Below are positions 36,269 through 38,687 of a stretch of 64,000 nt of DNA, one piece after another. The notes beneath the pieces were generated by a model, which was not told where the DNA came from, did no database searches, and worked only from the letters and a program-made list of their open reading frames with translations. The stretch comes from Halothermothrix orenii H 168 (GTDB lineage: Bacteria > Bacillota > Halanaerobiia > Halanaerobiales > Halothermotrichaceae), in NCBI RefSeq assembly GCF_000020485.1, contig NC_011899.1, positions 159,501-223,500 of the forward strand, given 5' to 3'. A program made the position numbers and the translations under genes. Numbering within the stretch: position 1 is the first letter of the stretch; each line of letters begins with the position of its first letter.

Positions 36269-36297
36269 TTGACACTGAATCTATTTATGTGTATAAT
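36269..36297 (+). promoter_or_regulatory. Promoter of the pheA T-box leader
   Basis: Exact consensus: TTGACA at 36269-36274 and TATAAT at 36292-36297 with a 17-base spacer. Confidence 0.88.
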
Positions 36298-36407
36298 ATA
36301 TAATCAAACAAAAGATAAAAAATTTGTAAAAAACTATGAACAGGGAAAGTAATTAAAATTACCTGTTTTGAGCGAGCCGGGGATGGTGAAAGCCCGGTAA
36401 CAGGGAT

Positions 36408-36476
36408 TTTAATGAAGTTCCCCTGGGAGTTGTGCGCTGAACCTTTAATGAAGTTACCCTGGGAGTTGTGGGCTGA
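36408..36476 (+). repeat. 33-base tandem repeat within the T-box stem I 3' strand
   Basis: Copies at 36408-36440 and 36444-36476 differ at two positions. One changes the specifier codon from TTC to TTA; the other is a C to G further on. Both keep GAAG before and CCCTGGGAG after the codon. Confidence 0.93.
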
Positions 36477-36601
36477 TTCATTGAGTATTAGGCTTTTACC
36501 GGTTGTCGGCCGTTACCCCGACACGGTTATAGAAGTAATACCTTCCGTAGCCGGATTGAGCGGGTCATTGACCAAAAAGGATGGTACCGCGGGATAATAA
36601 A

Positions 36602-36631
36602 CCTCGTTCCTTCATGGGAACGGGGTTTTTT
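36602..36631 (+). terminator. T-box leader terminator
   Basis: CCTCGTTCC (36602-36610) pairs with GGAACGGGG (36617-36625) with one G-U, followed by six T. It is alternative to the antiterminator carrying the T-box. Confidence 0.88.
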
Positions 36632-36668
36632 GTATTTATAGTAAAAAATGAGTAGGGAGGAGATATTA

Positions 36669-37580
36669 TTGTGTCCAGCGCGATACGGGTATTTAGGACC
36701 TGGAGGCACCTTCTGTGAAAAGGCAGCCCTTAAGTATTTTGGAGGGGGTCATGAGATGATTTCTTTCCGGACGATAAAAGAAGTCGTCCGGAATGTCAAA
36801 GAAGGCTCCATTGAAAAGGGGGTTATTCCCCTGGAAAACTCACTCGAAGGGTCGGTCAATTTAAGCCTTGACCTGCTTGTTAAGGAATCAAACATAATTA
36901 TAACCGGTGAAGTAATTATTCCGATAAACCATAATTTAATAGGCCAGAAAGGGTTGGAAGTAGGTAACATAAAGAAGGTTTTGTCCCATCCCCAGGCCAT
37001 TGCCCAGACGGCTGATTTTATAGAAGAAAACCTACCTCAGGCCGAAATTATTTATACGGAAAGTACCGCTGCTGCCGCAGAGTGTGCTTTAAAAAACAGG
37101 GAGTTAGCTGTTATCGGGTCAGACCAGATTGCCCATCTGTATGGATTAAGTGTAATAGCAGAGGGTATCCAGGATGATGATGAGAACTACACACGGTTTA
37201 TAATTATCTCCCGGAGTAAAGGTAAATTCTTTTACAGTACGGGCTATAATAATTATCAGGATACAAAGAAAATGTATAAAACATCTATTGTCTGTACCCC
37301 TGAGGTAAATAAGCCCGGGGTTCTTTACGAAATGCTGGGTGAATTTGCAGCTCGAAAAATAAATTTGACCAGGATAGAATCACGACCGACCAGGAAAAAG
37401 CTGGGGGAATATCTGTTCTATATTGACCTTGAGGGTCATTACCATGACCCACTGGTGGCCGGAGCCCTGAAAGAAGTGAGAAATATGTCCGGACTCTTTA
37501 AAATACTGGGTTGTTATTTTAAGGATAATATTAAAGAAGGGAGTAGTGAGAAGGATGCTAAATGTAAAAAGAGGGCTTAA
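36669..37580 (+). CDS. pheA: Prephenate dehydratase
   Basis: Converts prephenate to phenylpyruvate in phenylalanine synthesis. 303 residues. The periplasmic-binding-protein-like catalytic domain begins YLGPGGTFCEKAALKYF and contains NSLEGSVNLSLDLL and the TRF motif (NYTRFIIIS). A C-terminal ACT domain (about 210-285) with the ESRPTRKKLGEY motif provides Phe feedback control. The start is taken as TTG 36669, six bases after GGGAGGAG; an ATG at 36648 lies upstream of that site. The T-box leader directly upstream gives tRNA-charging control, with Phe the expected amino acid. Confidence 0.92.
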   Translation: MCPARYGYLGPGGTFCEKAALKYFGGGHEMISFRTIKEVVRNVKEGSIEKGVIPLENSLEGSVNLSLDLLVKESNIIITGEVIIPINHNLIGQKGLEVGNIKKVLSHPQAIAQTADFIEENLPQAEIIYTESTAAAAECALKNRELAVIGSDQIAHLYGLSVIAEGIQDDDENYTRFIIISRSKGKFFYSTGYNNYQDTKKMYKTSIVCTPEVNKPGVLYEMLGEFAARKINLTRIESRPTRKKLGEYLFYIDLEGHYHDPLVAGALKEVRNMSGLFKILGCYFKDNIKEGSSEKDAKCKKRA

Positions 37581-38673
37581 AAGCTGGAAAAGAATTGTCA
37601 GGGATGAGGTTCACAATATCAAACCCTATATCCCTGGAAAACCTATCAAAGAGGTTAAAGAAGAGCTGGGTCTGGCTGAAGTATATAAACTGGCTTCAAA
37701 TGAAAACCCACTGGGAGTATCACCCAGGGTTAAGGAGGTTTTGACCAGAGAAACGGTAAATATCAATCGTTATCCCGATGGTGCCAGCCGGAGTTTAAAA
37801 AGATCTTTAAGTGATAAGCTTGGTGTTAAAGAAGATATGATTGCCATCGGTAATGGTTCTGATGGATTATTAAAAGTAATTGCGGAGGCATTCCTCGATA
37901 ATAATAGTCAGGCTGTAATTTCCTATCCATCATTTGTTGAATATAAATTTGTTTCCCAGTTAATGGGGACCCAGCTTATAAGGGTCTGGATGAAAAATTA
38001 TCATCAAAACCTGGAGGCCCTTGCCCGCGGGGTGACCTCAAAAACAAAACTAATCTTTTTAACCAATCCCCACAATCCAGCTGGTACTATATTCAGGAAA
38101 GATGAGTTGGAACAATTTTTAAGCCAGATCCCCGATGATGTAATCGTTGTCCTTGATGAGGCTTATCATGAATTTGTCCAGGATGAATCCTATCCTGACG
38201 GAATTGAGTATGTAAAACAGGGTTATCCGGTTATTGTACTCCGGACTTTTTCAAAAGCATATGGCCTGGCTGGCTTAAGACTCGGCTATGCTATATCTGC
38301 CCCGGATATAATTGAAACTTTAATGAAGGTAAGGGATCCCTTTAATGTGAATCACCTCGCAGAGAAAGCAGGGCAGGCAGCCCTTGAGGATAAAGACTTC
38401 CTGGAGGCTACCATTCGTAATAACGAACAGGGTAAAGAGTATCTATACACTGAACTTGACAAAATTGGGGTTGGTTATGTTCCTACCCAGGCCAATTTTG
38501 TGTTAATAAGGACCGGGGTAGATTCTATAAAAATGTTTAAAGAACTCTTAAAACATGGGGTTATAGTAAGACCGGGTAAACCCCTGGGTTATCCCCATCA
38601 TCTACGGGTTAGTATTGGTCTCCCCGAAGAGAATGAGGCCTTTATCAGGGGCCTTAAATTGACTCTGGAATAA
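37555..38673 (+). CDS. HisC-family aminotransferase, probably aromatic/phenylalanine-specific
   Basis: 372 residues, paralog of the gene at 32084. KLASNENPLGVSP, GNGSDGLLKV, VVLDEAYHEF and TFSKAYGLAGLRLGYA (Schiff-base Lys) mark it as a HisC-group PLP enzyme. It overlaps the end of pheA by 26 bases and shares the T-box leader. I infer that it transaminates phenylpyruvate to phenylalanine rather than, or in addition to, histidinol phosphate. The start is ATG 37555; a GTG at 37546 is in frame. Confidence 0.88.
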   Translation: MLNVKRGLKSWKRIVRDEVHNIKPYIPGKPIKEVKEELGLAEVYKLASNENPLGVSPRVKEVLTRETVNINRYPDGASRSLKRSLSDKLGVKEDMIAIGNGSDGLLKVIAEAFLDNNSQAVISYPSFVEYKFVSQLMGTQLIRVWMKNYHQNLEALARGVTSKTKLIFLTNPHNPAGTIFRKDELEQFLSQIPDDVIVVLDEAYHEFVQDESYPDGIEYVKQGYPVIVLRTFSKAYGLAGLRLGYAISAPDIIETLMKVRDPFNVNHLAEKAGQAALEDKDFLEATIRNNEQGKEYLYTELDKIGVGYVPTQANFVLIRTGVDSIKMFKELLKHGVIVRPGKPLGYPHHLRVSIGLPEENEAFIRGLKLTLE

Positions 38674-38687
38674 CTATTTGCTATAAT
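38659..38687 (+). promoter_or_regulatory. Promoter of proBAC
   Basis: TTGACT at 38659-38664, inside the end of the aminotransferase gene, and TATAAT at 38682-38687 have a 17-base spacer. proBAC can therefore be transcribed independently of the T-box leader. Confidence 0.7.

Follow-up and report, generated by a model that had tools for sequence, protein, structure and literature searches.

T-box leaders in which more than one codon is available, or in which part of the element is repeated, have been described before. In the T-box of the transamidation operon of C. acetobutylicum, one specifier loop holds two codons that overlap, and binding of both tRNAs was shown (Saad et al. 2013, described in PMC4052509). 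For thousands of leaders, TBDB records other possible frames of the specifier (PMC7778990). Partially tandem T-boxes, insertions in every domain and lineage-specific insertions have also been noted (PMC7583486). The pheA leader of Halothermothrix orenii, on which our literature search found nothing relevant, resembles the C. acetobutylicum element in making more than one codon available in a leader but differs in presenting two separate strands, the second unconserved and only a putative specifier. It resembles tandem and partially tandem T-boxes (PMC7583486) in repeating part of a T-box within one leader, but only 36 nt are repeated, and the stem I 5' strand, the stem II 3' strand and the antiterminator each remain single. 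It is also close to the Phe-class RF00230 leaders of pheA and pheS in Halanaerobiales, with which it shares a stem I with loop E and UUC, a K-turn, stem II, the IIA/B region, the UGGU bulge and a terminator, and from which it differs by an extra 36-nt copy of the stem I 3' and stem II 5' strands, found only in the H. orenii leader.

The window, that is, the whole stretch of 64,000 nucleotides analysed here, comes from a genome of the order Halanaerobiales that consists of one contig of 2,578,146 bases. Scanning the window with cmscan placed a T-box leader (RF00230) at 36327-36614 on the forward strand, with 113.3 bits (E 2.8e-24) against a gathering cut-off of 93 bits. The elements of the leader and the genes behind it are as follows.

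36269-36297, forward strand: putative sigma-70-type promoter, TTGACA-17-TATAAT, 12 of 12 consensus positions.
36327-36614, forward strand: T-box leader, RF00230, 113.3 bits against a gathering cut-off of 93.
36341-36345, forward strand: CAGGG, 5' side of the helix that lies beneath the specifier loop in stem I, complementary to CCCUG of either copy.
36348-36351, forward strand: AGUA, 5' side of the loop E motif of the specifier loop, from the RF00230 alignment.
36352-36359, forward strand: AUUAAAAU, 5' side of the upper stem I helix, over the specifier loop; pairs with 36406-36413 (8 bp).
36408-36440, forward strand: repeat copy 1, with the stem I 3' strand, UUC (36418-36420), GGGAG of the K-turn and the 5' strand of stem II; the relatives have the same C in the specifier and A in the stem II GAA (24/24 each).
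36444-36476, forward strand: repeat copy 2, probably redundant, with UUA (36454-36456), absent from 24/24 relatives.
36487-36493, forward strand: AUUAGGC, 3' side of stem II, occurring once, from the RF00230 alignment and the relatives.
36582-36585, forward strand: UGGU of the T-box bulge, partner of the ACCA 3' end of uncharged tRNA, from the RF00230 alignment and the tRNA ends.
36599-36628, forward strand: strong intrinsic terminator competing with the antiterminator, 13 pairs, loop of 4, T tail.
36648-37580, forward strand: pheA, prephenate dehydratase with ACT domain (PF00800, E 1.6e-60; PF01842).
37546-38673, forward strand: class I/II aminotransferase, HisC or aromatic type (PF00155), overlapping pheA.

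By every feature tested, this leader is a T-box: the UGGU bulge matches the ACCA end of tRNA-Phe(GAA), a competing terminator lies upstream of pheA, and the UUC of copy 1, placed as in the pheS leader and in 24 relatives, fits the gene downstream, pheA. It holds one RF00230 match and one antiterminator, and not two complete units in series. Uncharged tRNA-Phe(GAA) would make two contacts by base pairing, one in stem I with the copy 1 UUC and one in the antiterminator with UGGU; with tRNA-Phe bound, the terminator at 36599-36628 would not form, and pheA and the aminotransferase gene would be transcribed. The overlap of the two genes suggests that they share a transcript.

A few observations concern the surroundings of the leader. 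Within 36655-36671, inside the listed pheA reading frame, a Shine-Dalgarno-like GGGAGGAG precedes by 6 nt a TTG in the same frame (36669), which is probably the true start of pheA rather than the ATG at 36648. A promoter-like TTGACT-17-TATAAT (11/12, with TG before the second hexamer) is found at 38659-38687, at the end of the aminotransferase gene, and just after it comes the proline set proB-proA-proC, without a T-box of its own; these genes stand behind the pair presumed to be under Phe control but may have a separate promoter. The window also carries a glmS ribozyme (RF00234, 2128-2298, 122.4 bits). Elsewhere in the genome, a T-box-like match of 62.9 bits, below the curated cut-off, stands upstream of an aminotransferase gene (L010, 1501-1706).

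The first-pass annotation had described a 33-base tandem repeat in this leader, and the sequence bears it out: positions 36408-36440 and 36444-36476 form a direct repeat with 31 of 33 identities. The starts are 36 nt apart, so that three bases (ACC) lie between the 33-nt units and the repeated unit amounts to 36 nt once they are counted. The repeat is real, since the best 33-nt self-match reaches 31 in this leader versus a maximum of 22 in 200 first-order Markov shuffles and 21 in the 24 orthologous leaders described below. An assembly artefact is unlikely because the copies are not identical and stand 36 nt apart. Both copies keep GAAG before and CCCUG after the codon slot, as had been noted, and CAGGG at 36341-36345 can pair with CCCUG at 36421-36425 (copy 1) or at 36457-36461 (copy 2). 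The segment had been described as containing the 3' side of stem I; that assignment holds, but the unit is larger than was thought. The copies also share GGGAG, the strand of the stem I base and K-turn, and the stem II 5' strand, and the unit therefore comprises the 3' strand of stem I, the K-turn strand and the 5' strand of stem II. Present only once in the leader are the stem I 5' strand, the stem II 3' strand and the antiterminator. The pheS T-box of this genome has CUGAACCUUUAGUAGG as its equivalent stem II loop, and a duplication running from UUUA in the stem I strand to a UUUA in a loop of this kind would yield exactly a 36-nt unit with an ACC junction.

Comparison with related genomes shows that the duplication is private to this leader. 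Among 38 genomes of Halanaerobiales that we searched, pheA was found in 28; we compared 24 orthologous pheA T-box leaders, the window's own not counted. Each of the 24 has exactly one GAA(G/U)UUCCCC, and neither the duplication nor a second specifier occurs in any of them (0/24 for both). No comparable repeat was found in the nine other T-box matches of the same genome or in 19 long T-boxes fetched from relatives, where the background is 16-21 of 33. A DNA-pattern scan of 84,980 genomes, which may have left out records near the window genome, returned no other T-box with the same duplicated layout; its sole locus was a simple direct-repeat array on a planctomycete contig, with no T-box match.

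The same leaders polarize the differences between the copies. The third base of the specifier is C in 24/24 relatives and in copy 1, and A in copy 2. In the GAA of stem II, the last base is A in 24/24 relatives and next to copy 1 (36441), where GAA is intact at 36439-36441, and U after copy 2 (36477). The column of 36435 holds a purine in 24/24 relatives, G in copy 2 and C in copy 1. By these states, the specifier and the stem II GAA are ancestral in copy 1, and copy 2 carries the derived base at both; one stem II base lost from copy 1 survives in copy 2. Scored against a profile built from the 24 leaders, the H. orenii leader fits best when copy 1 alone is used (176.3 bits), less well with a mixture of copy 1 for stem I and copy 2 for stem II (171.5), and least with copy 2 alone (165.7).

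Which codon each copy displays could be calibrated on other T-boxes of the genome, located upstream of tRNA synthetase genes that we named from their translations. After GAAG, these present CGC for ArgS, AUC for IleS, ACC for ThrS, GUC for ValS, UUC for PheS and AUG for MetG, and the pheS leader, with GAAG-UUC-C, has a layout identical to that of copy 1, including the next base. Read in this slot, the specifiers are UUC at 36418-36420 and UUA at 36454-36456, as first annotated; one base shifted, copy 2 would read UAC. The genome encodes tRNA-Phe(GAA), tRNA-Leu(UAA) and tRNA-Tyr(GUA). The earlier remark that UGGU suits tRNAs with an A discriminator is true but does not discriminate, because all three end in ACCA: UGGU excludes neither the Leu nor the Tyr tRNA and only keeps a dual reading possible.

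Where the additional copy sits in the structure depends on which strands are used. In the RF00230 alignment, copy 1 serves as the stem I strand and also as the 5' strand of stem II, and copy 2 is treated as an insert in apical stem II. Stem I, the K-turn and stem II then follow one another without interruption, as they do in the relatives; reviews stress the positioning of stem II by the K-turn (PMC7583486). The stem II 3' side, AUUAGGC here, is AGUAGGC or AGUAAGC in most relatives and again AUUAGGC in leaders L021 and L031, so that the stem II AGUA motif is AUUA at 36487-36490 here and in those two, and AGUA in the other aligned leaders. Most likely, copy 2 lies in the apical part of stem II. 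Less likely is an arrangement in which copy 1 supplies stem I, copy 2 supplies stem II and a 36-nt linker joins the two, favoured only by base 36435; given that base, the working 5' strand of stem II may come from copy 2, which would affect the position of the insert but not the specifier that is read. Both arrangements read UUC. UUA is read only if copy 2 supplies every strand; stem I would then carry an insert of 36 nt next to the specifier loop, and its upper helix, 8 bp with copy 1 (AUUAAAAU at 36352-36359 with AUUUUAAU at 36406-36413), would have 6 bp (AUUAAA with UUUAAU at 36444-36449), both lengths as first annotated. In constrained folds, stem I is more stable by 7.6 kcal/mol on copy 1 (-50.7) than on copy 2 (-43.1 kcal/mol). 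Free folding of 36333-36513 did not return the canonical T-box stem I, and fold energies therefore carry little weight.

Taken together, we consider it very probable that this is an ordinary Phe T-box with a lineage-specific 36-nt tandem duplication, in which UUC is the working specifier and UUA a substitution in a redundant copy. In this lineage, a piece of the leader comprising the 3' strand of stem I, the K-turn strand and the 5' strand of stem II was duplicated in tandem; copy 1 would have remained the working stem I strand, and copy 2, being redundant, would have acquired UUA by a single substitution. The duplication is best read as recent. The suggestion that copy 2 is a decaying duplication gains support from its absence in 24/24 orthologues and from the derived bases at the specifier and the stem II GAA; its UUA looks like that of an unselected copy, not of a second sensor.

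An unlikely alternative is that copy 2 was recruited as structure: with no second tRNA involved, it would tune the switch through an extra hairpin in stem II. The bases that follow copy 2 are unlike the short stem II loops of relatives, and when stem I is constrained to copy 1 in the fold, the UUAAUGAA of copy 2 pairs with UUCAUUGA (36477-36484), giving -10.8 kcal/mol for 36442-36486. This hairpin is, however, no better than expected from shuffled sequences (z -1.07; 32/200 fold as well), and its energy is the same when C is restored in the codon slot (-10.4 versus -10.5).

Far less probable is the proposal, made in the first-pass annotation, that the leader reads two tRNAs by strand exchange, the copies alternating as the stem I 3' strand so that UUC reads tRNA-Phe(GAA) and UUA tRNA-Leu(UAA). 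It would fit the retention of GAAG, CCCUG and GGGAG in both copies, the complementarity of CAGGG to either, the presence in the genome of a tRNA-Leu(UAA) ending in ACCA, and the fact that, of only two differences in 33 nt, one is in the codon slot. One change of 33 falling in a 3-nt slot is, however, not improbable, and the comparison of pheA leaders speaks against the proposal, with copy 2 and a second specifier absent from 24/24 orthologues. Copy 2 also lacks the conserved stem II GAA, its stem I would be weaker by the 7.6 kcal/mol given above, with the 6-bp upper helix and the 36-nt insert beside the specifier loop, and Leu control of pheA has no metabolic reason, leucine being unlinked to the function of the gene. 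By conservation of a second specifier, the one criterion assessed, the H. orenii leader would not class as a two-tRNA T-box. We thus give very little credence to a single T-box in which one stem I 5' strand serves two exchangeable 3' specifier strands, for tRNA-Phe and either tRNA-Leu(UAA) or, one base shifted, tRNA-Tyr. The Tyr version is the least credible of all: dual Phe/Tyr sensing would suit the aromatic pathway, copy 2 does contain GAAGU-UAC-CCUG (UAC at 36455-36457), tRNA-Tyr(GUA) ends in ACCA, and frame-shifted overlapping specifiers are known in C. acetobutylicum (Saad et al. 2013, cited in PMC4052509) and -1/+1 frames are allowed by TBDB (PMC7778990), but the objections to Leu apply equally, the register is shifted from that of all calibrated T-boxes of the genome, and the codon would abut the CCUG helix.

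Dual sensing by strand exchange, if shown, would be a novel means of combining signals from two tRNAs in a single riboswitch. As a known riboswitch with a private tandem duplication, the leader is a minor curiosity. It nevertheless offers a clean natural example of a T-box part that has been duplicated with the original specifier retained, which may be raw material for a second specificity.
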